From assembly GCF_002777255.1 (NCBI RefSeq), contig NZ_CP017634.1:248001-312000 (forward strand): 64,000 nt of DNA, given 5' to 3'. Shown here piece by piece: positions 8,055 through 43,862 of this stretch. The stretch's first letter is position 1, and each line of letters begins with the position of its first letter. Under the pieces are notes generated by a model. The model made no database searches, was not told where the DNA came from, and saw only the letters and a program-made list of their open reading frames with translations. A program made the position numbers and the translations under genes. This DNA comes from Candidatus Formimonas warabiya (GTDB lineage: Bacteria > Bacillota > Dehalobacteriia > Dehalobacteriales > Dehalobacteriaceae).

Positions 8055-8130
8055 TGGACACCTCATTGGTTAAATATACCGCAGAAGGAAGCTGACACCT
8101 TTGGTATAAAAGCGTAATCAGAGTGGTTTT

Positions 8131-8167
8131 GAAGAGCCGTGGAGTAAAATCTGCGGTTCTTCTTTAT
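8131..8167 (+). terminator. Rho-independent terminator
   Basis: GAAGAGCCG (8131-8139) pairs with CGGTTCTTC (8154-8162, one G-U), followed by TTTAT. It separates the exported-protein genes from the activator gene. Confidence 0.65.
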
Positions 8168-8208
8168 CGTAAGATTATAATATAATTAGTTTAAAAAACT
8201 ACAGCTTG

Positions 8209-8238
8209 TTGTGGAATATTTTATGAAGAGTGTATACT
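8209..8238 (+). promoter_or_regulatory. Sigma-A-type promoter of the activator gene
   Basis: TTGTGG (8209-8214) and TATACT (8233-8238) separated by 18 bp, about 60 bp before the start codon at 8298. Confidence 0.5.
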
Positions 8239-8297
8239 AAGCTTATAACGAGACAGAAAGTGGATCAGCTCTAAAGTCATTCTATGAGGTGAAAAAT

Positions 8298-9662: not shown

Positions 9663-9689
9663 AAAATTACTCGCGGAATAAGAAAAACG

Positions 9690-9706
9690 ATGATGTTATT
9701 TATCAT
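9690..9706. promoter_or_regulatory. Possible activator binding site (inverted repeat)
   Basis: ATGAT-N7-ATCAT inverted repeat about 140 bp upstream of the sigma-54 promoter, at the distance expected for an upstream activator site. Only one short palindrome is visible, so the assignment is tentative. Confidence 0.25.
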
Positions 9707-9722
9707 AAAAGGGAAAAGACAG

Positions 9723-9772
9723 AAGGCAATAAAACTTGCGAAAATAGGGTAAGTTTTTTTGCCTTTATTTTT
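9723..9772 (+). terminator. Terminator after the activator gene
   Basis: AAGGCAATAAAACTT (9723-9737) pairs with AAGTTTTTTTGCCTT (9751-9765) with a single mismatch, followed by TATTTTTG. Confidence 0.8.
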
Positions 9773-9847
9773 GTTGATATCAGTGCTAAGAAGCGGGAAA
9801 GGGTAATTTACCGCACTCTTCCTGGGAAATCAACCTTTGAGTTTGCT

Positions 9848-9865
9848 TTGGCACAATAGTTGCAT
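9848..9865 (+). promoter_or_regulatory. Sigma-54 (-24/-12) promoter of the aminomutase gene
   Basis: TTGGCAC (9848-9854), AATAG, TTGCAT (9860-9865): the invariant GG (9850-9851) and GC (9862-9863) are separated by exactly 10 bp, matching the RpoN consensus almost perfectly. Transcription should begin near 9874, leaving a ~44-nt leader before the start codon. Confidence 0.9.
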
Positions 9866-9917
9866 TAAGATACCGCAATCAGCTGATTTATTATTTAAGT
9901 TTTGGAGGTAATTACTC

Positions 9918-11186
9918 ATGCGAGCGTTCAAAGAAATCTCCCTTTGGAAGGATGTATCAGAGGAAAAATGGCATGATTGGCATTGGCAGATCGCTAATCG
10001 CATTACAAATCTAACACAATTAAAACAAGTTATCAATCTGACTAAGGAAGAGGAACGGGGTATTCATGATTGTTTAAAAAGTTTACGGATGGCGATCACG
10101 CCCTATTATGCAACACTGATGAGTCCTAGTGATCCCAAATGCCCTGTCCGCTTGCAGGCAGTTCCCACAGAACCGGAGCTCGTGCGCAATTCTGACGATT
10201 TAGATGATCCGACTTTTGAAGATATTGATTCCCCGGCACCCCATTTAACGCATCGATATCCGGATAGAGTGCTTTTTTTGGCTACCGATCAATGTTCCAT
10301 GTATTGCAGGCATTGTACACGCAGGCGCCTTGTCGGATCACAGGATGGAGCATATGGACCGGAAGAATTGGAAGCTGCATTTCAATATCTTCAAAAGACA
10401 CCCCAAGTCAGAGACGTGGTTGTCTCTGGGGGAGACCCATTAACACTCAGTACGGAAAGGCTGGAACAGATTATTAAAAGGCTGCGGGCAATTCCACACA
10501 TGGAAATAATTCGCATCGGAACCAGGGCCCCGGTTGTTATGCCTCAGAGAATCACGGATGAATTGTGTGACATGCTTCATCAATATCATCCGATCTGGCT
10601 GAATACGCATTTTAACAACCCCAAAGAAATAACGGCAGAATCTGAGCAGGCGTTAGCGAAGCTTGCTGATGCAGGAATTCCCCTGGGAAATCAGTCGGTG
10701 CTGCTCAAAGGGGTTAATGATTGCCCGAATATAATGAAAAAATTAGTTCAAACACTAGTCAAGAATCGTGTTCGCCCCTATTATTTATACCAGTGTGACC
10801 GGTCGGTAGGCATCCAACACTTCTGTACCTCGGTGGGAAAAGGGATAGAAATAATGGAAAGCTTGAGAGGTCATACATCCGGATTAAGCATACCAACTTA
10901 TGTGATCGAGGCGGTGGGAGGTGGGGGCAAATGTCCGGTTTTGCCTCAGTATCTAATTTCCCGAAATGACCGAAAAGTAATTTTAAGAAATTTCGAGGGT
11001 GTGATATCGACCTATACCGAACCCGAGGATAATCGAAGTGTCTGTGATTGCGAAGACTGTCAGGCTGAAAGGGCAAAAAAGGAGTTAAACGGCCTGAGGA
11101 ACTTTTATACAGATCGAAAAATAATGATGGAGCCAGGTGAGCTGCCAAGAGCAAAGAGAAGAAAAAATGCGGGTCCTGTAGCATAG
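9918..11186 (+). CDS. kamA: Lysine 2,3-aminomutase (radical SAM, PLP)
   Basis: 422-aa KamA/AblA-type enzyme interconverting L-lysine and L-beta-lysine. The radical-SAM cluster motif CSMYCRHC is at C126/C130/C133. The PLP-lysine region is GGGGKCPVLPQY and the C-terminal zinc-type cysteines lie in CDCEDC. Of the two acidic residues that bind the substrate epsilon-amine in the Clostridium enzyme (D293 and D330), the first is kept (D294 in QCDRS) and the second is Glu (E331 in VIEAVGGGGK); the Lys/Asn pair of glutamate 2,3-aminomutase is absent. Ribosome site GGAGGT at 9903-9908. No kamDE, kdd, kce or acetyltransferase ablB is nearby, so fermentation versus osmolyte use is open. Sigma-54 dependent. 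Confidence 0.9.
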   Translation: MRAFKEISLWKDVSEEKWHDWHWQIANRITNLTQLKQVINLTKEEERGIHDCLKSLRMAITPYYATLMSPSDPKCPVRLQAVPTEPELVRNSDDLDDPTFEDIDSPAPHLTHRYPDRVLFLATDQCSMYCRHCTRRRLVGSQDGAYGPEELEAAFQYLQKTPQVRDVVVSGGDPLTLSTERLEQIIKRLRAIPHMEIIRIGTRAPVVMPQRITDELCDMLHQYHPIWLNTHFNNPKEITAESEQALAKLADAGIPLGNQSVLLKGVNDCPNIMKKLVQTLVKNRVRPYYLYQCDRSVGIQHFCTSVGKGIEIMESLRGHTSGLSIPTYVIEAVGGGGKCPVLPQYLISRNDRKVILRNFEGVISTYTEPEDNRSVCDCEDCQAERAKKELNGLRNFYTDRKIMMEPGELPRAKRRKNAGPVA

Positions 11187-31095: not shown

Positions 31096-31132
31096 TGAGA
31101 TGATTCTCATATGAGATACTTCTCATATCGAA
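31096..31132 (+). promoter_or_regulatory. Overlapping TGAGA/TCTCA operators before the second tetR-rph pair
   Basis: TGAGA-N4-TCTCA (31096-31109) overlaps a perfect 12-bp palindrome TCTCATATGAGA (31105-31116), and a degenerate copy TCTCATATCGAA follows at 31121-31132. They lie 36-72 bp before the GTG start, where the promoter must be. Confidence 0.6.
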
Positions 31133-31167
31133 TGATGTATGTTATGATGCTATCAGGAGGTGATCGT

Positions 31168-31764
31168 GTGCCAAAAGACACTTTTTATAATTTAAGTGAC
31201 GAGAAGAAAAAGAGAATATTTGACGCTGCCATGCAGGAGTTCTCAAACCGGCGCTTCAGTGACGCATCCCTCAACCAGATTGTGAAGGCTGCCAAAATAC
31301 CCTGGGGAAGCTTTTATCAGTATTTTAATGATAAAGAGGACATCTATCTTTATATGTTGGAAGAAATTGCAAAGGAAAAGCAGGAGATTCTCAGATGCGC
31401 AGAAGACTTAGACCAGGATGCGGACGTTTTTGAAACGATGATTCATAAAGCTAAAGCAGCCCTTGAACTGAGCAAAGTAAAACCGGAATATTCCCGGATC
31501 GGGATGCAGATGGAGTTGGATAACAGTGAATTTATTATGAAAATCCGTAGAATATCCGCCGAAAAATATATAAGAATGATTGAGCGTGATAAAAAGCGCG
31601 GTCTCATCAAACCGGAAACTGATTCCGAACTTGTGTTAAATATGATTTTCACATTCGGTTTAAATGAGTATTACAGGAACGGATTAGACGAGGAAAGGTA
31701 TTTAAAGATGCTTAACGATGTTATCAAAATAATCAAGGAAGGAATTGCAGTATTTAAGGAATGA
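31168..31764 (+). CDS. TetR family regulator (second rph pair)
   Basis: 198-aa repressor with HTH in RIFDAAMQEFSNRRFSDASL then NQIVKAAKIPWGSFYQYFNDKEDIYLYML. GTG 31168 is selected since a perfect AGGAGGTGAT (31155-31164) precedes it; ATG 31111 lies inside the operator. The sequence is clearly different from the TetR at 21500 although both sit directly before an Rph-like gene. Probably controls itself and that enzyme. Confidence 0.88.
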   Translation: MPKDTFYNLSDEKKKRIFDAAMQEFSNRRFSDASLNQIVKAAKIPWGSFYQYFNDKEDIYLYMLEEIAKEKQEILRCAEDLDQDADVFETMIHKAKAALELSKVKPEYSRIGMQMELDNSEFIMKIRRISAEKYIRMIERDKKRGLIKPETDSELVLNMIFTFGLNEYYRNGLDEERYLKMLNDVIKIIKEGIAVFKE

Positions 31765-31819
31765 TAGATACGATTATCTGATCGGTTTGGCCATCAAAAC
31801 AATGGAAAGGAGACTAGGC

Positions 31820-34450
31820 ATGAATTCATATGTACTCCGGTTTGAAAAAATCGATAAACAAAAGCTCATGGTGGTTGGCGGTAAAGGGGCCAACCTGGGG
31901 GAACTATCCAGGATTGAAGGGATACGGGTACCGGAGGGTTTTTGTGTTACCACCGAAGCGTACAAAAGAATAATCGGGGAAATGTCAGAATTAAACTCAT
32001 TACTGGATCAATTGTCCCTGCTAAAGGTGGAAGACAGAGAAAGAATCAAGGAAATTAGCAAAAAAGTTCGCCAAGTCATCGAAGGAATAGCCATTGCCAG
32101 GGATATCGAGGAAGAGATCGTTCGTGATCTCGCTAAGCTTGGTGAGGATAATGCCTATGCCGTGCGTTCCAGCGCCACGGCAGAGGACTTGCCGAATGCC
32201 TCCTTTGCAGGCCAGCAGGATACGTATTTGAACATTAAAGGAAAAGATTCCATTCTGCAGCATATCAGCAAGTGCTGGGCGTCGCTGTTTACCGATCGTG
32301 CCGTGACCTACCGCATCCAAAACGGCTTCGACCACCGCAAAGTCTATTTATCTGTTGTCATCCAGCGGATGGTTTTTCCCCAGGCTGCCGGGATTATGTT
32401 CACGGCTGATCCCGTCACCTCCAACCGGAAGGTACTGTCCATCGATGCCAGCTTCGGGCTTGGCGAGGCGCTGGTCTCCGGCCTGGTGAATGCTGATATT
32501 TACAAAGTACGGGAGGGCAGAATCGTCAATAAGAAAATATCCACCAAGAAACTGGCCATCTACGCTTTAGAAAAAGGTGGTACGCAGGAGCGGGAGATCG
32601 AGCCCGGACGTCAGAACATGCAGACGCTGACGGATGAGCAGATTTTACAGCTTGAGAGCATGGGCAGAAAGATCGAGGCTTATTTCAACTGCCCGCAGGA
32701 TATTGAATGGTGTCTTGTTGATCATGCTTTTTATATTGTCCAGAGTCGCCCCATCACAACGCTATACCCGATTCCCGAAGTGACCGATGGGAAAAATCAT
32801 GTATTTGTATCGGTGGGACATCAACAGAATATGACGGATGCCATCAGACCACTGGGGATGTCTATGCTCCAACTATTAGGTACTCGCTTTTCCACATTAT
32901 CAATGCCGCAAGCCGGGGGAAGGTGGTTCCTCGATGTAGCCCATGATCTCACCTCACCCATCGGGCGAAGCATGGTACTGGCTATGGGTAAAAGCGACCC
33001 GCTCATAGGGAATGCGATCCGGAGTCTAATAAAGCGAAAAGACTTTATGAAATCATTATCGCATGGAAAGAAAACCATTGGTTTGGGCAGCAGCGGGCTA
33101 TCCTGGGCGTTTCTCGTTCAGACTATCAAGATCTATCGCAAACCAGATGAAGCGGTTATTCAAAGTCTTATGTCGCGTAACGAAGCGTCTGTCAGAGACC
33201 TGCAGAAAAGGATTGCAGGCTTATCGGGAGAGGAACTGTTTACCTTTATACCGGAGGACTTTAAGGAATTGCAAGACATCATGTACAATCCGGGCAGCAT
33301 GGGAGCGATCTCAGTTTTGTTACTGGCGACGAACTGGCTCAATAAGAACTTGGGAAAATGGTTGGGCGAGAAAAATGTGGCCGACATACTCTCAAAATCG
33401 GTAGAAAATAACCCTGCCTCTGAGATGGGGCTTGCGTTGTTGGATGTAGCAGACGTCGTCCGGCAATATCCGGAGGTAATTGAATATTTTCATCATCCCA
33501 GTGATGAGGCCTTTTTTGAAGGCCTGACCAAGCTGGAAGGCGGCGAGGCGGTTAGCCGCTCTCTACGGGCGTATCTTGATAAAAACGGCATGCGTTGTTC
33601 CGGCGAGCTGGATATAACCAGACCGCGCTGGAGCGAACAGCCGACCACGCTCGCCTCAATGATTCTCGGCAATATCAAGAATTTCGCGCCCCATGCGCAC
33701 AAAACCATATTTGAGCAGGGCCGTCTGGAGGCTGAACAAAAAGCGCAGGATCTTCTGAGCCGGCTCGAGAAGCTGCCCGGGGGCAAGAAAAAGGCCCAAA
33801 AAACAAAGAAGATGATCAATACTCTACGAACCTTAGCTGGCTATCGGGAATATCCCAAATATGCCCTCACACAACGTTTCTTTATCTGTAAACAGGCGTT
33901 GCTGAAGGAAGCTGACAACCTTGTACGAAAAGGTATCATCCGTGATAAGGAAGATATCTATTATCTGTATTTTGAGGAGCTGAGAGAGGCGGTTAAAACA
34001 CACCGGCTGGATTATAGCATTATAACCAAGCGAAAAGCGGAATACGAGGTCTTTGACAAGCTGACGCCGCCTCGGGTGATGACGTCTGAGGGAGAGATTA
34101 TATCCGGCGAATACAATATGGAAAACATCCCCCAAGGGGCCTTGGCCGGTATAGCCGTTTCATCCGGCGTCGTCGAGGGCCGGGCGCGGGTTGTTTTAAA
34201 GATGGAAGACGTCGACATAGAGGAAGATGACATTTTGGTAACCGCATTCACTGACCCCAGCTGGTCTCCTCTGTTCGTATCCATTAAGGGCTTAGTGACG
34301 GAAGTAGGCGGAGTGATGACGCATGGCGCAGTTGTCGCGCGGGAATACGGACTTCCGGCAGTCGCAGGCGTGGAGAATGCTACCAAGCTGATCAAAGAGG
34401 GGCAGAGGATCCTAGTCAACGGAACGGAAGGATATGTCCAAATCTTGTAA
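31820..34450 (+). CDS. Rifamycin phosphotransferase-like / PEP-synthase-family enzyme (copy 2)
   Basis: 876-aa paralogue of the enzyme at 22147 with the same order: ATP-grasp (MVVGGKGANLGELSRIEG, FAGQQDTYLN), helical middle domain starting SVGHQQNMTDAIRPLGMSML, and the swivelling domain with catalytic H835 in GGVMTHGAVVAREYGLPAV. N- and C-terminal domains are very similar to copy 1, the middle substrate-binding part (residues ~360-530) much less so. ATG 31820 follows AAAGGAG (31806-31812). It lacks the 20-residue insertion of copy 1. Likely inactivates a different or additional antibiotic. Confidence 0.82.
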   Translation: MNSYVLRFEKIDKQKLMVVGGKGANLGELSRIEGIRVPEGFCVTTEAYKRIIGEMSELNSLLDQLSLLKVEDRERIKEISKKVRQVIEGIAIARDIEEEIVRDLAKLGEDNAYAVRSSATAEDLPNASFAGQQDTYLNIKGKDSILQHISKCWASLFTDRAVTYRIQNGFDHRKVYLSVVIQRMVFPQAAGIMFTADPVTSNRKVLSIDASFGLGEALVSGLVNADIYKVREGRIVNKKISTKKLAIYALEKGGTQEREIEPGRQNMQTLTDEQILQLESMGRKIEAYFNCPQDIEWCLVDHAFYIVQSRPITTLYPIPEVTDGKNHVFVSVGHQQNMTDAIRPLGMSMLQLLGTRFSTLSMPQAGGRWFLDVAHDLTSPIGRSMVLAMGKSDPLIGNAIRSLIKRKDFMKSLSHGKKTIGLGSSGLSWAFLVQTIKIYRKPDEAVIQSLMSRNEASVRDLQKRIAGLSGEELFTFIPEDFKELQDIMYNPGSMGAISVLLLATNWLNKNLGKWLGEKNVADILSKSVENNPASEMGLALLDVADVVRQYPEVIEYFHHPSDEAFFEGLTKLEGGEAVSRSLRAYLDKNGMRCSGELDITRPRWSEQPTTLASMILGNIKNFAPHAHKTIFEQGRLEAEQKAQDLLSRLEKLPGGKKKAQKTKKMINTLRTLAGYREYPKYALTQRFFICKQALLKEADNLVRKGIIRDKEDIYYLYFEELREAVKTHRLDYSIITKRKAEYEVFDKLTPPRVMTSEGEIISGEYNMENIPQGALAGIAVSSGVVEGRARVVLKMEDVDIEEDDILVTAFTDPSWSPLFVSIKGLVTEVGGVMTHGAVVAREYGLPAVAGVENATKLIKEGQRILVNGTEGYVQIL

Positions 34451-34681: not shown

Positions 34682-36091
34682 TTGGAGAAGGTTAATCCAT
34701 TGAAGACCCAAATAGCTATTTTAGGTGGCGGTCCTGCAGGCTATGTAGCGGCAATGAGAGCAGCTCAACTGGGAGCAGAAGTAGTTTTGGTAGAAGAAAG
34801 AGAATTAGGCGGAGTTTGTTTAAATCGTGGATGCATACCGACCAAGGCCTTATTAAAAAATTCTGAGGTAGCGTATTTATGTCATGGTGCAAAGGAATAC
34901 GGTATCGATGCCCTGGTATCCGATATGGATTGGCAGTCAGCTTGGTTACGTAAAGAACGTGTGGTAAAGAACCTGCGTTTGGGTCTGGAACATTTGATAA
35001 CCGAACAAAAAATCGTGTTATTAAGAGGACGGGGAGAAATACTGAATCCTCGAGAATTAACTGTATATATGGAAGATGGAAGGGTTAAAGTTTCCTTTAG
35101 TAAACTAATTATTACCGTAGGTTCAGATCCGTCTCTTCCTAATATTCCTGGTATTCATTGTCTTGGGGTGATCACCAGTAATGAGGCATTGGAACTGCAG
35201 GAGGTTCCAAAATCATTGGTTATTGTGGGAGCCGGTGCCGTAGGATTAGAATTTGCCCATATCTTTAACAATGTGGGCTCTAAAGTAACTGTGATAGAAG
35301 CAGAAGATAGCATTTTACCCCAAGAAGATGAGGAAATTACAAAAGAACTGCTGAAAATTCTAAAAAGGCGTGGGATCGGATTTAAGCTTGCGTCTACTGT
35401 CAAAGAAATACATGAGAAACACGGTTTATTGGAAATATCAATGACCGATAAAAACAAAGAAATGGTTATAAATACTGACAAAGTGTTAATGGCGGTGGGG
35501 AGAAAACTTAGGACAGCTACTCCTGATATAATCAATCTAGGCATTAAAACTGACAGCAAAGGCGCTATTTTGGTAAATGAGAGGATGGAAACAAGTATAG
35601 AGGGTATTTATGCTGCCGGAGATGCCATCGGGGGGAAGCTTCTGGCCCATTTAGCCTATTCGGAGGGGTTTGCGGCAGTAGAGAACGCATTGGGTTTCGG
35701 AACCAGGGTTCATTATGATGCTGTTCCTTCCTGTGTTTATACTCAACCGGAGGTTGCTGCCGTGGGTATTCATGAAAGGGAAGCCCGGAAGCGCGGTATT
35801 CCTGTGAAAGTTGGACGATCCGATTTCCGCCATAATGGCCGTGCTTTGACATTGAATACAAGAGAGGGCTTTGTGAAAGTTGTAATTAGAGCTGATGATC
35901 ATGTAATCATTGGCGGGCAAATTTTAGGCCCGGAAGCATCGGAAATGATCTCTGAATTAACATTAGCGATTACCTTAGGTGTTAAAGCTGAAGTATTAGC
36001 GAGGATGATTCATCCCCATCCTACCTTAAGCGAAGCGATTATGGAGGCATGTGGAGATGCAATTGGCATGGCTATTCATCAGGTAAAATGA
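34682..36091 (+). CDS. Dihydrolipoamide dehydrogenase-like flavoprotein
   Basis: 469-aa FAD/NAD(P) disulfide oxidoreductase. FAD motif ILGGGPAGYVAAMRAAQLGA, redox-active cysteines in GGVCLNRGCIPTK (~residues 46-51), NAD motif VIVGAGAVGLEFAHIF, FAD motif IEGIYAAGDAIGG, and C-terminal catalytic His-Glu in HPHPTLSEA. It re-oxidises dihydrolipoyl groups with NAD+. Starts at TTG 34682, 8 bases after GGGAGG. No 2-oxoacid dehydrogenase or glycine-cleavage P/T genes lie nearby; instead it heads an operon with its own GcvH-like carrier and lipoate ligase, which is its probable partner. Confidence 0.92.
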   Translation: MEKVNPLKTQIAILGGGPAGYVAAMRAAQLGAEVVLVEERELGGVCLNRGCIPTKALLKNSEVAYLCHGAKEYGIDALVSDMDWQSAWLRKERVVKNLRLGLEHLITEQKIVLLRGRGEILNPRELTVYMEDGRVKVSFSKLIITVGSDPSLPNIPGIHCLGVITSNEALELQEVPKSLVIVGAGAVGLEFAHIFNNVGSKVTVIEAEDSILPQEDEEITKELLKILKRRGIGFKLASTVKEIHEKHGLLEISMTDKNKEMVINTDKVLMAVGRKLRTATPDIINLGIKTDSKGAILVNERMETSIEGIYAAGDAIGGKLLAHLAYSEGFAAVENALGFGTRVHYDAVPSCVYTQPEVAAVGIHEREARKRGIPVKVGRSDFRHNGRALTLNTREGFVKVVIRADDHVIIGGQILGPEASEMISELTLAITLGVKAEVLARMIHPHPTLSEAIMEACGDAIGMAIHQVK

Positions 36092-36133
36092 TTTTTTGTG
36101 AACACAATTTTAATAAATAGGAGGGGAAGAAAC

Positions 36134-36508
36134 ATGGAAGAGAATGAAAAACAACTACCCGGCTTTATTATGTGTGTGTGTACCGGGAAATGCCCCGGCT
36201 TTTCCAAAATGGATATCTGGGATTTTATCAATCAGGTAAGGGTGGAACTTCCGGTGGAGTATGGTTTTATTCATCCCCAGCTTTGTGAAGAGGATGGAGA
36301 CAGATTTTTGGCGGACTTTTTAAAAGCGCACCGAAAGGTGATAATTGGGGGCTGTGCTCCCAACATGCAGAAAAAGCTGTTCCGGGATGCCTTTTCTCAT
36401 GCCGGGCTCGATATTCATAGAGATCTGATTCCCCTTGATGTGCGGGATATGACAACAGAAGAAGCAGTGGCCAAGGTCCAACAGGCTTTGGATGAACTGG
36501 AGGGTTGA
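36134..36508 (+). CDS. Stand-alone HdrA N-terminal-like Fe-S protein
   Basis: 124-aa protein resembling only the N-terminal cluster-binding domain of heterodisulfide reductase HdrA: CVCTGKCPG near the start, LCEEDGDRFLADFLKAH (compare HdrA C-x3-GQ-x-LI) and VIIGGCAPNMQKKLF (HdrA VVAxCSPxMHExTF), then VRDMTTEEAVAKVQ. The flavin and ferredoxin parts of HdrA are missing, and the ferredoxin is encoded as the next gene. ATG 36134 follows AGGAGGGG; the frame extends to GTG 36098 without a site. Probably carries an Fe-S cluster and passes electrons with its neighbours; inferred. Confidence 0.72.
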   Translation: MEENEKQLPGFIMCVCTGKCPGFSKMDIWDFINQVRVELPVEYGFIHPQLCEEDGDRFLADFLKAHRKVIIGGCAPNMQKKLFRDAFSHAGLDIHRDLIPLDVRDMTTEEAVAKVQQALDELEG

Positions 36509-36510
36509 AG

Positions 36511-36804
36511 ATGGGTGAAAATACCTTTATGGGCGTGCCCCGGGATAAGATTGATTGGGCACCGGCCATTGATTATGTCAAGTGCGATTACTGTATGGAA
36601 TGTGTGAAGTTCTGTCCTCACCAGGTTTTTGAAGTAAGGGAAAACGAAGAGAAACGGCTTATTGTAAAAAATCCGCACAATTGTGTGGTATTCTGCCGGG
36701 CCTGCGGAAAAACCTGTGGCCCCGATGCCCTCGCTTTTCCTAATAAAAATGAGACGACAAAAAGAATCAAAGAAATCAGGAAGGAGTTGGGGGGAAGTGA
36801 GTAA
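36511..36804 (+). CDS. Two-cluster ferredoxin-like protein
   Basis: 97-aa protein with two four-Cys sets: CDYCMECVKFCP (CxxCxxCxxxCP) at residues ~25-36 and CVVFCRACGKTC (Cx3Cx2CxxxC) at ~58-69; both could hold [4Fe-4S]. ATG 36511 is 2 bases past the previous stop region and fits the GGAGGG at 36498; the end overlaps the next gene by 8 bp. Electron carrier for the lipoate/DGC operon. Confidence 0.85.
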   Translation: MGENTFMGVPRDKIDWAPAIDYVKCDYCMECVKFCPHQVFEVRENEEKRLIVKNPHNCVVFCRACGKTCGPDALAFPNKNETTKRIKEIRKELGGSE

Positions 36805-37654
36805 AACCTATGCCATCCTTCCCTGCAATGGATTAGACAAACCGGCGGGATCTTTAACCAGAGAAATTGCTCTGCGGCTGACGGAGCAGACCGGGAGTGA
36901 AATACTTTGTCCGGTCCTGTACCGGGTATCGGATAGCCGGTACAACCAGATAGCGGCAGAAAAACCTCTTGCGGTGATTGACGGATGCGGTACCCGCTGT
37001 GCCTCGAAGCTTGCTGCGGAAAAGGGATTGAAAATTGCTGAAAAGATTAATATTACCGAGGAGAGCAAGAAGTACAATATTAAAATTGGCCCTTCTTCAA
37101 GAATGGGACCAAACGAGTTGCTCCTATGTGATTTAATCGTAAAGAGCCTATTTGAAGAAAAACCGAAAGAAGAGCAGAAAGCGAAAGAAGCAGTTGTTTT
37201 CCCGACGGAATTTGAGTATGAACGATATCAAAAAGACAAATTTATTTTCCGGGTTCCCCAACAAGGTTTCTACTTTAACGAAAATGATTGCTGGGCCTAT
37301 GTAGTCGGCAATAAAGCCCGGATTGGTGTTACCGACTTTGTGCAAAAGAGCCTCTCGGATATTATGTTTTTTACTCCTCCATCCATTGGCAGTGAAATAG
37401 AGCAGTTTGGTGAAGCAGGTTCTATTGAGTCAGGGAAAGCGGTCTTTGAAATTATTTGCCCGGTTTCCGGGATCGTTACCGCAATCAATGATCAACTGTT
37501 GGATTATCCTGAATACATTAATGACAACCCCTATGAAAAAGGGTGGATCGTGGAGTTAAAATTAATAGACTTTGAAAGTGACAAAGAGCTTTTATTGGAC
37601 ACCGAAAGTTATTTCAAGATCATGAAAAGGAAGGTCGATGAGTTTCATGTCTAA
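36797..37654 (+). CDS. DGC-domain (putative zinc-binding) protein fused to a GcvH-like lipoyl carrier
   Basis: 285-aa fusion. Residues ~1-95: DGC domain (PF08859-like) with PCNGLDKPAGSLTREIAL, a mid Cys (ILCPVLY) and the hallmark IDGCGTRCASKLAAEKG. Residues ~130-265: GcvH/LbpA-type lipoyl domain with KARIGVTDFVQKSLSDIMF and the lipoylation lysine in SIESGKAVFEI, then PYEKGWIVELKL. GTG 36797 lies 10 bases after AAGGAG (36781-36786). A lipoate ligase and a dihydrolipoamide dehydrogenase in the same operon support its being lipoylated. The fusion itself is uncommon; it implies the DGC domain acts directly on the lipoyl arm. Confidence 0.82.
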   Translation: MSKTYAILPCNGLDKPAGSLTREIALRLTEQTGSEILCPVLYRVSDSRYNQIAAEKPLAVIDGCGTRCASKLAAEKGLKIAEKINITEESKKYNIKIGPSSRMGPNELLLCDLIVKSLFEEKPKEEQKAKEAVVFPTEFEYERYQKDKFIFRVPQQGFYFNENDCWAYVVGNKARIGVTDFVQKSLSDIMFFTPPSIGSEIEQFGEAGSIESGKAVFEIICPVSGIVTAINDQLLDYPEYINDNPYEKGWIVELKLIDFESDKELLLDTESYFKIMKRKVDEFHV

Positions 37655-38048
37655 GAAGGTAAAAGTAATCCCGTGCAGTGGCATCGGTAAGGTCCATGGC
37701 CTGTTAGCCCGGGAAATGGCCTTAAAGATTGCTCAGGAGATTTGTATTGAAGAAGCTGAAACAGACTGCCTGGCCCATATTGTCACCGGAGATCAGGAGA
37801 TTTCAGACCGGATCAAAGATGGGAAATGTATGACCATAGACGGCTGTCCCAAAATGTGTGCTGCCAAAAGTGTAGCCTACATTGGCGGAAATATTGCAGA
37901 AAAATTCCGGGTAGTAGACGCTTTGAAAGAATACCGGGGAGCGGCGCCGGGTAGTGCTACTGCTCTTAATGAAGAAGGTTGGAAGATTGTTGATGAGACA
38001 TCGGAAAAATTAGCAGCCCGAGTGAGGGAAATTTACAGGGAGGAATAG
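37638..38048 (+). CDS. DGC-domain putative zinc-binding protein
   Basis: 136-aa protein with the DGC cysteine pattern: IPCSGIGKVHGLLAREMALK, ETDCLAHIV, DGKCMTIDGCPKMCAAKS. The family is annotated as putative zinc-binding because of its regularly spaced cysteines; function is unproven. ATG 37638 overlaps the previous gene by 17 bp and follows AAGGAAGG; ATG 37647 is an alternative. Second of three DGC units in this operon. Confidence 0.8.
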   Translation: MSFMSKKVKVIPCSGIGKVHGLLAREMALKIAQEICIEEAETDCLAHIVTGDQEISDRIKDGKCMTIDGCPKMCAAKSVAYIGGNIAEKFRVVDALKEYRGAAPGSATALNEEGWKIVDETSEKLAARVREIYREE

Positions 38049-38050
38049 AA

Positions 38051-38467
38051 ATGGAACTGGTTAAAATTGGAGTCATTTCGTGCAGTGGGGAAGACTGTTT
38101 TGGAGGAACCGTCTCACGTTTAGCGACAAGAAAAATTCTTGAGAGAATTCGTTTAGGAGAAGCGGTCACCATTTGTTTACCACTATTTATTGCCGGAGGG
38201 GAAGAAGAACGGGGATTTGCTCAAGCACACCCTACAATTACCGTTGACGGCTGCGGAAAATGGTGTGCCAAGAGGGCTACGGAAAAACTAAGCGGAAAGG
38301 TCAGTGATGTTGTCCAGGTAGCGGATATCATTGGGCAAAAGACTGCCGAAGGTCCGGCGCTTTCTACCCGAAACGTAACCAAGGAACACATGGAAATGGT
38401 TGATCAAGTAGTGGAAGACATCCGGATCAAATTTGACCGTATCGCTGACGGCTATTACAAAAAATAG
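38051..38467 (+). CDS. DGC-domain putative zinc-binding protein
   Basis: 138-aa paralogue: ISCSGEDCFGGTVSRLATRK, VTICLPLF, ITVDGCGKWCAKRATEKLSG. It differs from the other two by an extra Cys (GEDC) near the N-terminus. Two bases after the previous stop, with AGGGAGGAA as ribosome site. Third DGC unit. Confidence 0.8.
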   Translation: MELVKIGVISCSGEDCFGGTVSRLATRKILERIRLGEAVTICLPLFIAGGEEERGFAQAHPTITVDGCGKWCAKRATEKLSGKVSDVVQVADIIGQKTAEGPALSTRNVTKEHMEMVDQVVEDIRIKFDRIADGYYKK

Positions 38468-38486
38468 GTTAAGCCGGGGGAAAAAC

Positions 38487-39488
38487 ATGATTTATGAGAA
38501 ACCGAAAACATGCATATACAAATCTGTGTCATCTGATCCGTGGGTAAATCAGGCTTTGGAAGAATACCTTTTGAAACAGTGTTCCCCGGAGAGGATCATA
38601 CTTTATTTATGGCAAAATGACAAAACGGTGGTCATCGGCAGAAACCAAAATGCCTGGAAAGAGTGCCGCCATCTTGAACTGGAAAAGGACGGGGGAAAAC
38701 TTGCCCGCCGGTTATCAGGTGGGGGAGCTGTGTATCACGACTTAGGCAACTTAAACTTTACTTTTGCGATGAACAAAAGGCATTATGATTTGTCAAAACA
38801 GTTAGGGGTAGTTTTACGGGCCTTAAACAGGCTTGGGTTGAAGGGGGAATTTTGGGGGAGAAACGATCTGGTCATTGAAGGTAAAAAGTTTTCCGGCAAC
38901 GCATATTATTTTCATCGGGAGAATGCTTTGCATCATGGGACGATCCTGGTTCATTGCGATTTAATGAAACTTAGTCGTTACTTGCAGGTATCCCAGGAAA
39001 AAATTATTTCGAAAGGGGTTGATTCTGTCCGGTCAAGAGTAGTTAACCTATCGGAGATTTCTGAATCGATCACCTTAAGTGATGTGGCAAAAAGTATGGA
39101 GGAGAGCTTTCATGATATCTACGAGGGGGATGCCCAACCAATAGCAGTTGACCAAGATAGTTTTAATATCGGGCCATTGGTGGAAAAGTATTCCTCTTGG
39201 GAATGGCGCTTTGGTAACACTCCTCAATTTGATATTTCCTTAAGCCAACGTTTCAGTTGGGGAGAGATAGAAATCGGATTTTGCCTAAAAAGCGGTTACA
39301 TTGATGCCGTGAAAGTTTTTTCTGACGCTCTGGAAGAAAGATTAATCAGAGACATCAGGAAAAGTTTAGAAGGCTGTTTATTTAAAAAGGACAGCATGCT
39401 TGACCGGATTAAAAATGTGAGGGCTCAATCTGACAAGCAACAAATGGTCCATGATGTTACCCGATGGCTTGAGGCAAAAGAATTATAA
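38487..39488 (+). CDS. Lipoate--protein ligase
   Basis: 333-aa LplA-family enzyme that adenylates lipoate and attaches it to a carrier lysine. N-terminal LWQNDKTVVIGRNQNAW, the lipoyl-AMP motif RRLSGGGAVYHDLGNLNFTF, and the catalytic lysine in KKFSGNAYYFHR; a C-terminal accessory domain (FDISLSQRFSWGEIEIGF) matches bacterial LplA. ATG 38487 follows CCGGGGGAA; the frame is open to 38433 inside the previous gene. Being last in the operon with a GcvH-like domain suggests a dedicated ligase for that carrier. Confidence 0.92.
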   Translation: MIYEKPKTCIYKSVSSDPWVNQALEEYLLKQCSPERIILYLWQNDKTVVIGRNQNAWKECRHLELEKDGGKLARRLSGGGAVYHDLGNLNFTFAMNKRHYDLSKQLGVVLRALNRLGLKGEFWGRNDLVIEGKKFSGNAYYFHRENALHHGTILVHCDLMKLSRYLQVSQEKIISKGVDSVRSRVVNLSEISESITLSDVAKSMEESFHDIYEGDAQPIAVDQDSFNIGPLVEKYSSWEWRFGNTPQFDISLSQRFSWGEIEIGFCLKSGYIDAVKVFSDALEERLIRDIRKSLEGCLFKKDSMLDRIKNVRAQSDKQQMVHDVTRWLEAKEL

Positions 39489-39599
39489 GGGATCATAGCT
39501 GCCGTTCACTTACTCTCTGATTTGCAGAGGTTGAGATTAAGTTGTAGAATATTCTGGTAATAAGTAAATTAGTATATGATGAAAGAGAGTGAGTCAATT

Positions 39600-39974
39600 T
39601 TGGACAAAAGAATATATAAAGCATTTAAAGCCCTCGGTGAACCTACCCGGTTGAAAATTATTAAGATGCTTTCTGTTCAGGGTATGTGTGTTTGTGAATT
39701 AAGCGAAGTACTGGATATGCTTCAGCCCAGGGTTTCTCAACACCTAAAGATTTTGAAAGACGCGGAACTGGTCGTTGAAAACAAGGAAGGGTATTTTATC
39801 TGTTATACCTTAAATACTGCGGAATTAGCTAGTTTATGGAAGGAATTTTTTACATTCCTGGGAGCAGATCTGACAGATTTGCCTGGCTATGAGAAAGAAA
39901 TTGCCCGCATGGGTACCTTGGCATGCAATGAAAAAATCAAGGAAATAAAAGAAAAATTGAAAAAAGAATGCTGA
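39600..39974 (+). CDS. ArsR family metalloregulator
   Basis: 124-aa winged-helix repressor: AFKALGEPTRLKIIKML, the metal-site motif GMCVCELSEVL (C30 and C32, like the ELCVCDL arsenite site of ArsR), then RVSQHLKILKDAELV. TTG 39600 is chosen because AGAGAGTGAG precedes it; two ATG codons at 39576 and 39579 have no site. It stands 111 bp after the lipoate ligase and before a CMD gene. An arsenite-type sensor here is the main hint that the lipoate/DGC operon belongs with arsenic genes. Confidence 0.85.
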   Translation: MDKRIYKAFKALGEPTRLKIIKMLSVQGMCVCELSEVLDMLQPRVSQHLKILKDAELVVENKEGYFICYTLNTAELASLWKEFFTFLGADLTDLPGYEKEIARMGTLACNEKIKEIKEKLKKEC

Positions 39975-40086
39975 CGTTGTGTATATCTTCGTAACAATTA
40001 AACGTTCGGAGGTGATGGCAAGAGTCAGAGCATCGGGACTATTCTTTAGAAGTAAAGCGATTAAAAAAGGGAGAGGTGTATGATCA

Positions 40087-40410
40087 ATGAGGATGCTGGC
40101 GGAATTGTTTCCGGAATTTGCCCAAAAGTTGGATGAAATTGACGAGTTATACAAAGAGAAACGGCTGATTGATGAAAAAACCTATCAGTTTATTTGTTTT
40201 GCCGTATCCATTAAGGCAAGATCCAAACCTTGTGTGATTAAACATTTTAAAGGTGCGCTAGATGCAGGTGCTACTCCCAGGGAATTAGCTTACATATTTG
40301 CTCTTGTCATGCGGGAGGCTGCTGGTGCAGATGATTGCTGGACCCATGATGTACTAGGAGATTGGACCGAAATTGTTGCGGGCAACGTGGATTGTGGTTG
40401 TCAAAAATAA
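40087..40410 (+). CDS. Carboxymuconolactone decarboxylase (AhpD-like) family protein
   Basis: 107-aa CMD-fold protein: FAVSIKARSKPCVIKHFKGA followed by LDAGATPRELAYIFALVMREAAGAD. In AhpD peroxidase-type members the motif is CxxCxxxH; here it is SKPCVIKH, so only the second Cys and the His remain. It ends with VDCGCQK, an extra cysteine pair. GGGAGAGGTG precedes ATG 40087. CMD proteins recur in arsenic gene clusters; the reaction is unknown. Confidence 0.8.
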   Translation: MRMLAELFPEFAQKLDEIDELYKEKRLIDEKTYQFICFAVSIKARSKPCVIKHFKGALDAGATPRELAYIFALVMREAAGADDCWTHDVLGDWTEIVAGNVDCGCQK

Positions 40411-40545
40411 ATTGTTTTTCGCATGCGCAGTGAACGCAAATTCTAATAGGGAAGAACTTTACTCCGGTATAGTTCTTACATAGGCAGGCTCTTTTCCTTT
40501 CATGATTTTAGTGTACCAGTACTTGTTTAGGTAGGGGGTATTCTC

Positions 40546-40764
40546 ATGGGAAGATGTATAGATTGTGGAATTTTAATCCGAACGGAGCCGCATAAATGTT
40601 ATCGATACAATACGGAGCTTTCCGAACAGGAGATTTTAAGAGAAAGAGACTGCCTATTCTTTACCGAACCAGAGTATGATGACGGAGAGCCTGTACCACC
40701 CAGTCAGTTGGTCCTATTAAAAGAGTTGGATATCAAAAGCAGAAAAATGCAAGGGCCGGTTTAA
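40546..40764 (+). CDS. Small protein with a partial zinc-ribbon
   Basis: 72-aa protein starting MGRCIDCGILIRTEPHKCYRY: one CxxC plus HxC pair, then an acidic tail (FTEPEYDDGEPVPPSQ). Clear GTAGGGGG ribosome site before ATG 40546 and a terminator after it. I do not recognise a family. Confidence 0.6.
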   Translation: MGRCIDCGILIRTEPHKCYRYNTELSEQEILRERDCLFFTEPEYDDGEPVPPSQLVLLKELDIKSRKMQGPV

Positions 40765-40795
40765 GATAGAAGACTTAAAGGAAGTATCGCTCGAG

Positions 40796-40818
40796 CACCC
40801 CTTTTGGGGTGTTTTTAA
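40796..40818 (+). terminator. Rho-independent terminator
   Basis: CACCCC (40796-40801), TTTT loop, GGGGTG (40806-40811), T5 tail. Confidence 0.8.
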
Positions 40819-40910
40819 AATTCGCACAAAGTGAATGACTAAATTTTGTGGCCCCTGGGCCCATTTTTTATAAAACATATTGATATTTTTCTATATGGGG
40901 CATAGAATAA

Positions 40911-40934
40911 TGATATAGATATATTTCTATATCA
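40911..40934 (+). promoter_or_regulatory. ArsR operator before arsR-acr3
   Basis: Perfect inverted repeat TGATATAG-N8-CTATATCA, 42 bp before the arsR start. Related half-sites (TGATATTTTTCTATAT at 40881-40896, TTATCTATATCA at 40942-40953) flank it. This fits the 12-2-12-type sites of ArsR repressors. Confidence 0.7.
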
Positions 40935-40975
40935 TAGAACATTATCTATATCAGTTCACGAGGATGGGGTGAATA

Positions 40976-41302
40976 ATGGTTATTTATCGTGAATACGTTC
41001 CCGTTTTTAAAGCTCTTGCCGATGAAACAAGATTGAAAATTATCGACATGCTTTCCTGCGGAGAACTTTGTGCCTGCAAGATATTGGAGAGTTTTCATAT
41101 TACCCAGCCTACCTTGTCTTATCATATGAAAATCTTGACCGAGAGCGGTATCGTGATAGGACGCAGAGAGGGAGCCTGGATGCATTATTCTTTGGATCAA
41201 AAGAGAATGGAAGAAATAAAAACGTTTTTGAGTGATTTAAGTCAAGATGACGAAAACTGTATTTGTAAAAGTATCAATTGGGATGGTGAAAAGTGTAAAT
41301 AA
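40976..41302 (+). CDS. arsR: Arsenical-resistance repressor
   Basis: 108-aa Ars[21 protein letters not shown], the As(III) site [12 protein letters not shown] (C32 and C34), [20 protein letters not shown] recognition helix and a C-terminal CICK pair. GGATGGGGTGA precedes ATG 40976. Directly followed by ACR3, which it should repress in the absence of arsenite or antimonite. Confidence 0.93.
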
Positions 41303-41385
41303 CTTTTACGAGAACAAAAGGAATGGTAGCATCGTATTTTACCACACGATCATCGATAAGATTATTTTTTAAGGAGGAAAAATCG

Positions 41386-42441
41386 ATGGGTGAGCATGTT
41401 TCCGCAAAATTAGGTTTTCTGGACCGATTTTTAACATTATGGATTTTTCTTGCCATGGCAATAGGGGTGGGAATTGGCTATGTATTTCCCGGAGTCGCTG
41501 ATTTACTAAATAAGTTTTCCGTAGGAACGACATCCATTCCCATCGCCGTAGGATTAATCGTGATGATGTATCCCCCTCTGGCCAAGGTAAGATATGAGGA
41601 ACTGGGAAAAGTATTTAAAAACAGGAAGGTAGTAACCCTTTCGTTGGTTCAAAACTGGATCATTGGTCCGGTGTTCATGTTTATTTTAGCGATCATCTTC
41701 CTGCATAATTATCCGGAATATATGGCAGGTTTAATTCTAATTGGCCTGGCGCGCTGCATTGCCATGGTTATTGTTTGGAACAGTCTTGCGAGAGGTGATT
41801 CAGAATACGCTGCTGCATTGGTAGCATTAAATTCTATTTTTCAAGTGATTTTCTTTTCCTTTTATGCCTATATTTTTATTACACTGTTGCCTCAATGGAT
41901 CGGCATGAAGGGAATGGTCGTGCATATTTCCATGGGTGAAGTGGCAAAAAGCGTAGCTGTTTATCTGGGAATTCCCTTCGTTGCAGGTTTCTTAACACGC
42001 TATTTTCTTGTGCCGGCCAAAGGAAAAGAATGGTATGAAAAAACATTTGTACCGAAAATCAGCCCGATAGCCCTGATTGCTTTGCTTTTTACGATTGTTG
42101 TCATGTTTTCATTAAAAGGAAACTACATTATTAAGTTGCCCATGGATGTAGTAAGAATTGCTATACCTCTGGTGATCTACTTCTTAGTGATGTTTTTAGT
42201 CTCCTTTTATATTAGCCATCGGATGGGTGTTAATTATGAGCAGACAACAACTTTATCTTTTACTGCGGCAAGTAATAACTTTGAGTTAGCCATCGCAGTT
42301 GCTGTAGCGGTATTTGGCATTGAATCAGGCCAGGCTTTTGCGGCTGTAATAGGTCCCTTAATCGAGGTCCCGGTAATGATTTGGCTTGTCAATGTGGCTC
42401 TTGGTTTTAAGAAAAAATATTTTTCGAAAGCATCCATGTAA
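41386..42441 (+). CDS. acr3: ACR3-type arsenite efflux permease
   Basis: 351-aa membrane protein of ten predicted helices that exports As(OH)3/arsenite with the membrane potential. Characteristic blocks: [38 protein letters not shown], the conserved Cys in [15 protein letters not shown], and [18 protein letters not shown] with the functional Glu. ATG 41386 follows AAGGAGG; upstream in-frame ATG 41323 has no ribosome site. Co-transcribed with arsR. Confidence 0.95.
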
Positions 42442-42506
42442 CCTTTTTCAGATGGAAACCAGGATTAAAAAATGGCAAAAATTTTTTATAAGGATATTTG
42501 CACAAT

Positions 42507-42523
42507 ACTTGCACAATACAAGT
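42507..42523 (+). promoter_or_regulatory. MarR operator before marR
   Basis: ACTTG-CACAATA-CAAGT, a 17-bp inverted repeat 34 bp before the marR start. The same 17-bp geometry recurs before arsM at 43016-43032. Confidence 0.65.
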
Positions 42524-42556
42524 AAATGTTCTATACTGTATCTAGAGGTGAAAAAA

Positions 42557-43000
42557 TTGGAAGATGTCAATGAGTTGATTCATCTTTTCGTACGCCGATA
42601 TGGATTACTCAATGCAAATTGTTGTGAGTCTTGTTGCGGGCAGGATGTATCGCTGGTCCAAAGCCATATATTGTACGAAATAAAAAGAAAGAAGAACCCA
42701 TCCATGCAAAGTGTGGCCGATGAACTTGGCATCGACATCACTACTTTCAGTCGGCAAATCAAATCATTGGTGACGAAAGGACTGATCGAAAAAGCTTTGG
42801 ATGAAGAGGATAAAAGAGTAAATGTATTAAGTCTAACTAGTGAAGGAGAAAGGGTATCTCTACTATTGCGTCAATATATGGAGAAACACATAGAACGTGT
42901 TTTTTCCTTCATGACGGAATTTGAGAAAGAATCGGTAATCCATTCTTTAAAATTACTGACTTGGGCGTTGACAAAAGCCGGGCCTTGTTGTACAGACTAA
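42557..43000 (+). CDS. Cys-rich MarR family regulator of the arsenic region
   Basis: 147-aa winged-helix protein: SHILYEIKRKKNPSMQSVAD, ELGIDITTFSRQIKSLVTKG and ALDEEDKRVNVLSLTSEGE are MarR hallmarks. The N-terminus carries CCESCCG (residues ~22-28) and the C-terminus GPCC, unusual for MarR and suggestive of thiol sensing of As(III) or another soft metal. Starts at TTG 42557, 6 bases after GAGGTG. It lies between ACR3 and arsM, and matching palindromes precede both marR and arsM. Confidence 0.82.
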   Translation: MEDVNELIHLFVRRYGLLNANCCESCCGQDVSLVQSHILYEIKRKKNPSMQSVADELGIDITTFSRQIKSLVTKGLIEKALDEEDKRVNVLSLTSEGERVSLLLRQYMEKHIERVFSFMTEFEKESVIHSLKLLTWALTKAGPCCTD

Positions 43001-43015
43001 ATTTTTTAAGAATAT

Positions 43016-43032
43016 ACTTGCAAAATGCAAGT
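43016..43032 (+). promoter_or_regulatory. MarR operator before arsM
   Basis: ACTTGC-AAAAT-GCAAGT perfect inverted repeat, 27 bp before arsM. Same outer arms and length as the site at 42507. Confidence 0.7.
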
Positions 43033-43058
43033 AAAGATAAAGAAAAGGGGCGCTGATA

Positions 43059-43862
43059 ATGGATTTTAATGTGAAGGAAACGGTGAAAGAGAAATATGGT
43101 AATATTGCCAAAAATGTTACCGGAGTGAAAAAGAGCAGTTGTTGCAGCAGTCCGTGTTGCGGAGAAGATATCTCCGCAGGATTATATGATATGGAAACCA
43201 TCAAGAATTTGCCTCAAGAAGCTGTTAATGCCTCACTTGGTTGTGCCAATCCATTACTCTTTGCCGGTCTAAAAGAAGGGGAAATAGTTCTTGATTTAGG
43301 AAGCGGAGGAGGAATCGATGTATTTCTTGCCTCAAAATATGTAGGAGATGCCGGAAAAGTCTACGGGCTTGACATGACAGATGAAATGTTGGAGCTGGCG
43401 AATAGAAATAAAGAAACGGCAGGTATCACCAATGTATCCTTTTTAAAAGGGTACATAGAAGAGATTCCTTTGCCGGATGAGTCGGTTGATGTGATTATGT
43501 CAAACTGTGTGATTAATCTGTCCGAAAATAAGGAAAAGGCACTTTCCGAAGCTTACCGGGTACTTAAAAAAGGCGGGAGACTGGCTATTGCAGATATTGT
43601 TACTTTGAAAGATATTCCCAGTGAAGCGAAAAAAAATGCTGAAATGTGGGTTGGGTGCCTGGCTGGTGCGTTGAATGCAAATGAGTATAAAAAATTATTA
43701 AGTACTGTTGGGTTTGAAGAAATTAAAGTTGACCCTATTCATGTTTATACCAAAGAAATAATTTTAGACTTGGCTAAACCGTTCGGTTTTGATACAAAAA
43801 GCATTGGTTTAGACGCCATTGATGGGGCATTTGCCGGGGCAGCGATTAAAGCAAGGAAATAA
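43059..43862 (+). CDS. arsM: Arsenite S-adenosylmethionine methyltransferase
   Basis: 267-aa ArsM. It methylates As(III) using SAM and thiols. SAM motif VLDLGSGGGIDVFLAS; As-binding cysteines C62 (GCANPL), C150 (SNCVINL) and C200 (WVGCLAG) are all present, with an N-terminal CC-SSP-CC cluster (C28, C29, C33, C34). Length and the AFAGAAIKARK ending are normal. AAAGGGG precedes ATG 43059. Regulated probably by the neighbouring Cys-rich MarR. Confidence 0.94.
   Translation: MDFNVKETVKEKYGNIAKNVTGVKKSSCCSSPCCGEDISAGLYDMETIKNLPQEAVNASLGCANPLLFAGLKEGEIVLDLGSGGGIDVFLASKYVGDAGKVYGLDMTDEMLELANRNKETAGITNVSFLKGYIEEIPLPDESVDVIMSNCVINLSENKEKALSEAYRVLKKGGRLAIADIVTLKDIPSEAKKNAEMWVGCLAGALNANEYKKLLSTVGFEEIKVDPIHVYTKEIILDLAKPFGFDTKSIGLDAIDGAFAGAAIKARK

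Follow-up and report, generated by a model that had tools for sequence, protein, structure and literature searches.

A lipoyl-carrier cassette of anaerobic bacteria and Asgard archaea as a candidate arsenic-detoxification module

What does a lipoyl carrier protein serve when the operon that encodes it holds no gene for glycine cleavage or for a 2-oxoacid dehydrogenase? The question is raised by seven genes of Candidatus Formimonas warabiya, whose genome is a single contig of 6.44 Mb and from which we analyzed a stretch of 64,000 nucleotides (NZ_CP017634.1, positions 248,001 to 312,000), hereafter the window, whose numbering is used throughout. The genes encode the dihydrolipoyl dehydrogenase Lpd, the HdrA-N-like protein HdrAN, a ferredoxin, a fusion of a DGC domain to a GcvH-type lipoyl carrier domain (the DGC-GcvH fusion), two stand-alone DGC proteins (DGC1 and DGC2) and the lipoate-protein ligase LplA, and together they occupy positions 34682-39488 on the plus strand (Table 1). 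From HdrAN through LplA the genes overlap or lie at most 19 bases apart, and a gap of 42 bases separates Lpd from HdrAN; the true starts are likely shifted slightly, to an ATG at 36134 for HdrAN, an ATG at 36511 for the ferredoxin, a GTG at 36797 for the fusion and an ATG at 38487 for LplA. The original prediction for this locus, made from the letters of the window, had named these seven packed genes and their families, and Pfam and NCBIfam matches to the open reading frames (ORFs) agree with it; nor do the ORFs of the operon include gcvP, gcvT or 2-oxoacid dehydrogenase genes, as it had also stated. It went on to propose a distinct lipoyl-dithiol system for "sulfur, electron or arsenic transfer", and of these three the gene neighbourhoods pick out arsenic, beginning with an arsenic gene cluster that the prediction had passed over and that lies directly 3' of the operon (39576-43862). 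Gene content and context lead us to propose for the operon a role as an anaerobic arsenic-detoxification module centred on a lipoyl arm, a reading to which we assign a probability of about 0.5.

A five-gene core among arsenic genes

A search of public genomes with an HdrAN profile returned 125 relatives, of which 80 were kept as loci. The core HdrAN, ferredoxin, DGC-GcvH fusion, DGC1 and DGC2 is complete in 76 of the 80, and this recurrence places the gene arrangement far beyond chance. In a set of 79 complete loci, made up of these 76 and five loci fetched earlier with two duplicates left out, the core genes always share one strand, follow the same order in 75 and have a median largest gap of 3 bases. 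Lpd is found near 37 and LplA near 12 of the 80 loci, and both are optional, not core; the self-contained seven-gene unit of the original prediction is thus replaced by a five-gene core joined to ars genes. Locus titles name Bacillota, Bacteroidota, Actinomycetota, Planctomycetota, Armatimonadota, Acidobacteriota, a Desulfovibrio metagenome-assembled genome (MAG) and Candidatus Geothermincola; the carriers also include Asgard archaea (Lokiarchaeota and Sigynarchaeota) and a Desulfitobacteriaceae MAG (L114). Many carriers are isolates (Lucifera, Desulfosporosinus, Clostridium ljungdahlii, Acetobacterium, Caloramator, Fusibacter, Eubacterium and Sedimentibacter), and the cassette is therefore not a MAG artefact. 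No match to it was found in 72,556 plasmid records.

We counted neighbours within 10 kb of the cassette using profiles built from the loci, with representatives of ACR3, ArsA, ArsM, ArsP and ArsE checked in curated libraries. An ArsR-type regulator lies near 68 of the 80 loci and at least one arsenic-specific gene (ACR3, ArsA, ArsM, ArsP or ArsC) near 51. Among the 48 loci for which 17.5 kb of DNA or more is available, 33 have such an arsenic-specific gene. Gene by gene, ACR3 accompanies 28 loci, ArsC 13, ArsM 12 and ArsA 11, ArsP-like permeases (PF03773) are present whole at 18 and as halves at 10, and an ArsE/MTH895-type thioredoxin is found near 42. An independent set of 300 phylum genomes includes 16 with HdrAN and 144 with ACR3. 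Thirteen genomes have both, and in 12 of these the two genes are no more than 20 kb apart, against an expectation of 0.18 (P ~5e-22); the five-gene form lies within that distance of ACR3 in 5 of 6 genomes (P ~2e-9). As mere co-presence, the association of the five-gene form with ACR3 is weak (P 0.12); what stands out is the short distance between the genes. Of the 80 ArsR proteins near the cassette, 51 have a CxC motif within their DNA-binding region, as is characteristic of classical As(III) sensors. At the Formimonas locus an As(III)-type repressor, ACR3 and ArsM all stand 3' of the operon. We conclude that the arsenic link of the cassette is strong.

A minimal ferredoxin-HdrAN pair without the DGC-GcvH fusion occurs in 8 of the 16 HdrAN genomes of the 300-genome sample (L125-L132, other Bacillota), where it adjoins ArsR and mostly also lies near ArsC and ACR3. 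Electron delivery may therefore be the older function, which somewhat favours the strongest rival to our proposal, namely that the parts of the cassette make up an electron chain whose main task is to reduce arsenate or methylarsenate with electrons from the dithiol and the iron-sulfur (Fe-S) proteins, replacing thioredoxin-ArsC. The source genome fits this idea in that it has no thioredoxin-type ArsC, one PF03960 (Spx/ArsC type) match aside, its sole LMWPc protein being a housekeeping phosphatase whose gene is flanked by rpiB and an MntP-like gene, and ten other genomes join it among the 11 of 28 carrier genomes that lack a strong ArsC match. The remaining 17 do have ArsC, sometimes in the same cluster, the minimal pair itself occurs with ArsC, and the DGC domains are not homologous to it (hhalign probability 9%). 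On this balance we consider a reductase chain possible but less likely than our proposal; as a general rule, a simple replacement of ArsC by the cassette is rejected by its presence in those 17 carriers.

A putative dedicated lipoyl carrier and its cysteine-rich partners

Thiol/redox chemistry is indicated by the conserved lipoyl lysine, the Lpd disulfide, the Fe-S proteins and the DGC domains with their twelve conserved cysteines. Lysine 214 of the fusion (K214, codon 37436-37438), the lipoyl lysine, is invariant in 78 of 78 fusion proteins, as are C10, C38, C64 and C68 in their DGC half, while cysteines 13, 44, 70 and 74 of DGC1 are kept in 96-100% of 82 copies and cysteines 11, 42, 68 and 72 of DGC2 at 100%. 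Conservation is likewise 100% for all five cysteines of HdrAN in 86 homologues, for eight cysteines of the ferredoxin in 85 copies and for the redox cysteines of Lpd across 41 cassette-linked copies. HdrAN falls in no Pfam family, and its family profile matches the N-terminal domain of solved HdrA structures (7bkb, E=2.4e-4; 9sfi, 6.4e-4; 5odc, 5.5e-3) with the HdrA cysteines aligned; at 124 residues it comprises this N-domain only and is no full HdrA with FAD domain (16.7 bits of 1400 for NF041778). DGC2 is homologous to the DGC half of the fusion (hhalign E 4.5e-13). In an AlphaFold2 model of the fusion (pLDDT 89) the C-terminal GcvH half reaches a TM of 0.93 against H-proteins, and a model of the DGC fold (pLDDT 92) gave no significant match to the PDB in Foldseek, the top match being a low-molecular-weight (LMW) phosphatase at E 0.014; on this value and the hhalign probability given above, we rejected a kinship of the DGC domain with ArsC and LMW phosphatases. 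Since no NCBIfam model (June 2026) scores over its cut-off for HdrAN, DGC1 or DGC2, such proteins probably go by the names hypothetical, zinc-binding or GcvH protein in current annotations.

With the glycine cleavage H protein the carrier shares the GcvH fold, the ESxKA lipoylation motif around a lipoylatable lysine and the company of Lpd; its lipoyl domain is of the GcvH type, not the biotin_lipoyl type of E2 proteins, and the operon encodes neither E1 nor E2. The intact fold and lysine would suit an ordinary GcvH duplicate working in glycine cleavage or in a 2-oxoacid dehydrogenase, but the cassette differs in its DGC fusion and in the absence of P and T proteins, is not linked to gcvP/gcvT or E1/E2 genes, and coexists in the source genome with gcvH and gcvP genes clustered elsewhere, at 4.80 Mb. 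The fusion also stays below the NCBIfam GcvH cut-offs (109 of 117; 101 of 116). In a tree of carrier domains that included 11 ordinary GcvH proteins, the fusion domains form one side of a 100/100 branch and do not group with ordinary GcvH. Glycine decarboxylase (GDC-P), moreover, was not found in 7 of the 28 carrier genomes, including one on a single contig with 99% completeness (G243). The duplicate is thus already contradicted and hardly credible, and the branch, the seven genomes and the lack of HdrB/HdrC at the locus bear out that the putative lipoyl-dithiol system is distinct from glycine cleavage and from the sHdr sulfur-oxidation system. Next to the cassette, LplA is present in 5 of the 7 genomes lacking GDC-P and in 2 of 19 having it (Fisher P ~0.006, relatedness not corrected); this tendency of the cassette to carry its own ligase in hosts that lack glycine cleavage suggests that the carrier needs lipoate.

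Further GcvH-like proteins were seen at some loci. In L094 and L081 the island that harbours the DGC-GcvH fusion contains additional GcvH-like ORFs. In L035 (genome 3221000-3237000) the minus strand at 6757-10812 carries a second non-canonical GcvH of 139 residues with a VESGKW motif, next to GlcD-like, GlcF-like (CCG, Fe-S) and UroD-type methyltransferase genes, names that except for GcvH and CCG were read by eye; this cluster is possibly another lipoyl system outside glycine cleavage.

Proposed arsenic capture on a lipoyl arm and the alternatives

Vicinal dithiols such as the dihydrolipoyl group bind As(III) tightly. Because the neighbours of the cassette are arsenic genes and its conserved parts are of the thiol/redox kind, we favour capture of arsenic on the reduced lipoyl arm followed by a relay through the DGC domains. 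That anaerobic bacteria and Asgard archaea possess a hitherto undescribed lipoic-acid-dependent arsenic pathway, with NADH and ferredoxin feeding a dihydrolipoyl arm on a protein that captures or reduces arsenicals, seems to us slightly better than an even bet. In the scheme that we infer, which covers lipoylation, arsenic binding, the electron route, the direction of transfer and regulation, LplA or a ligase of the host would lipoylate K214 of the fusion, and the lipoyl disulfide would be converted to the vicinal dithiol by Lpd and NADH and/or by low-potential electrons passing from the ferredoxin to HdrAN, which probably holds a [4Fe-4S] cluster. The dihydrolipoyl group would then capture trivalent arsenic and may reduce oxidized or methylated arsenicals en route, the three DGC domains of four cysteines each, the fused one and the two free ones, would take the arsenic over and hand it to efflux (ACR3/ArsA, ArsP) or to ArsM, and As(III)-sensing ArsR repressors would control expression. 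Several points weigh against such a module: a lipoyl arm that did no more than chelate arsenite would leave the Fe-S pair without a ready explanation; arsenic induction, binding and phenotype are predictions; in 29 of the 80 loci, many of them short contigs, the DNA covered shows no arsenic-specific gene; and ArsR-family repressors control sulfur oxidation too (PMC12423496), so that ArsR by itself is weak evidence.

Among the closest known systems is one of sulfur oxidation, sHdr/LbpA (e.g. of Hyphomicrobium denitrificans), which is defined by hdrC1B1A-hyp-hdrC2B2 genes (PMC6067878). It shares with the cassette a GcvH-like lipoyl carrier outside central metabolism, an HdrA-related protein, a linked lipoate ligase, Lpd (for sHdr, in archaeal clusters) and ArsR-family control. 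The cassette differs in lacking HdrB/HdrC, the nearest match to the CCG (HdrB) domain PF02754 lying ~40 kb off the operon, in an HdrA kinship limited to the N-domain, in the fusion of the carrier to a DGC domain, in its arsenic-gene neighbours and in its named carriers, which are largely anaerobes. Its carrier, possibly still of the LbpA type, scores 24.8 bits of 150 with the GcvH-related model NF045810. Its ligase is a canonical LplA over the TIGR00545 cut-off, not of the sLpl type (81 of 480 for LplA-large and 70 of 550 for LplAB, models that we take to stand near sLpl). In a second alternative, sulfane sulfur travels on the lipoyl arm, a role that has been proposed for LbpA, and thio-arsenicals or arsenic sulfide are made during arsenic stress. 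Desulfosporosinus species and Fusibacter are among the carriers, arsenic sulfide precipitation is mentioned in PMC9751042, and a cysteine desulfurase lies near 16 of the 80 loci and a rhodanese-like gene, its family read by eye, near 8. A desulfurase is nevertheless confined to a minority of loci, the core has no HdrB/HdrC, TusA or DsrE, and the Bacteroidota rhodanese apparently lacks the catalytic cysteine; we consider sulfur handling unlikely.

Lipoyl enzymes are classical targets of arsenite, and the cassette could accordingly shield or repair arsenic-poisoned lipoyl and Fe-S enzymes, or be sacrificed for them, without handling arsenic directly. The linkage of Lpd and LplA in part of the loci would accord with repair, but the cassette occurs in genomes without glycine decarboxylase and repair would not call for a carrier of its own joined to a DGC domain, which leaves this explanation the less probable of the two just considered, and quite improbable in itself.

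Other known systems resemble the proposed arsenic module in part. HdrA shares its N-domain sequence and cysteines with HdrAN, and Lpd, HdrAN and the ferredoxin resemble the flavin, N-terminal and ferredoxin domains of HdrA as separate genes; the cassette has no HdrA flavin domain and no HdrB active-site subunit. The mycobacterial chain of Lpd, lipoyl SucB and AhpD likewise brings together Lpd, a lipoyl protein and an AhpD-fold protein, whereas an AhpD-like gene lies near few cassettes only and here lacks the first active-site cysteine. Known ars operons (ArsR, ACR3, ArsA/D, ArsM, ArsP) have in common with the cassette loci their genes as neighbours and their As(III)-type repressors, but in the literature searched, which leaves out most subscription journals, no ars accessory has a lipoyl carrier, an HdrA-N-like protein or DGC proteins, and no description of the cassette was found there. 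The module is new as a set; the superfamilies of its parts are known, and arsenic detoxification is a familiar kind of setting. If the proposal is right, lipoate would gain a new biological role next to 2-oxoacid dehydrogenases, glycine cleavage and sHdr, and the picture of lipoate as the textbook victim of arsenic, through lipoyl enzymes, would be inverted into that of a tool against it. The cassette, which occurs in sediment and groundwater lineages, would also be a testable candidate for unexplained arsenic chemistry of anaerobes: Fusibacter 3D3 carries it (L105) and grows on arsenate without ArrAB, as described in a paper that is silent on lipoyl, glycine cleavage and heterodisulfide genes (PMC9751042). 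Culturable hosts (Clostridium ljungdahlii, Acetobacterium, Desulfosporosinus and Eubacterium callanderi) make it testable now.

Features of the window and further loci

Table 1. Genes of the cassette operon and of the arsenic cluster downstream, in window coordinates
Feature	Position	Strand	Basis
Lpd, dihydrolipoyl dehydrogenase, CLNRGC redox disulfide intact	34682..36091	+	TIGR01350, 507 bits (cut-off 409)
HdrAN, HdrA-N-like protein, 124 aa, five invariant Cys (CVCTGKC...C...C)	36134..36508	+	profile match to HdrA N-domain
2x[4Fe-4S] ferredoxin, 97 aa	36511..36804	+	Fer4_7/Fer4_10 at cut-off
DGC-GcvH fusion, putative lipoyl carrier	36797..37654	+	PF08859, 65 bits, and PF01597 (GCV_H), 104 bits, in one ORF
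DGC1, stand-alone DGC protein, four conserved Cys	37638..38048	+	PF08859, 55 bits
DGC2, stand-alone DGC protein, four invariant Cys	38051..38467	+	PF08859, 61 bits
LplA, lipoate-protein ligase, C-terminal accessory domain	38487..39488	+	TIGR00545, 356 bits (cut-off 280); Lip_prot_lig_C
First ArsR-family repressor, As(III)-type CVCEL motif	39576..39974	+	NF033788 over cut-off; motif read in sequence
AhpD/CMD-fold protein, accessory, first Cys of CxxC replaced by Ser	40087..40410	+	PF02627, 30 bits
72-aa Cys-rich protein, no Pfam family, conserved next to ars genes of L038 and L039	40546-40764	+	sequence
Second ArsR-family repressor, ELCAC motif	40976..41302	+	NF033788 over cut-off
ACR3 arsenite efflux transporter	41383..42441	+	TIGR00832, 471 bits (cut-off 283)
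ArsM arsenite methyltransferase	43059..43862	+	NF008823, 309 bits (cut-off 263)

An orthologue of the first ArsR likewise follows the cassette in L038 and L039. The AT-rich regions upstream of Lpd and of this ArsR, searched for an operator, gave no convincing common palindrome; some words are shared, TATATAAGAAT among them in three orthologous promoters, and promoter and terminator scans returned nothing above chance. The AhpD/CMD-fold protein of the window (40087-40410) is 95% identical across genera to its counterpart in L038 (10624-10947), compared with 67% for Lpd, both proteins standing after a cassette, which suggests either strong constraint or recent transfer. In L042 (~10070-10500, minus strand) an ArsR gene lies just 5' of HdrAN and is apparently broken by an in-frame TAG. 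The Bacteroidota loci L045 and L048 have the cassette preceded by ArsR, an ArsE-type thioredoxin, a thioredoxin lipoprotein, a DsbD/CcdA-like membrane protein and a rhodanese-like gene, and L048 in addition encodes an HgcA-like (CdhD-domain) protein and a ferredoxin 5' of ACR3. Upstream of the operon, window positions 31111-34450 encode a TetR-type regulator followed by a 901-residue PPDK_N/PEP-utilizer protein, whose architecture resembles that of rifamycin phosphotransferase.

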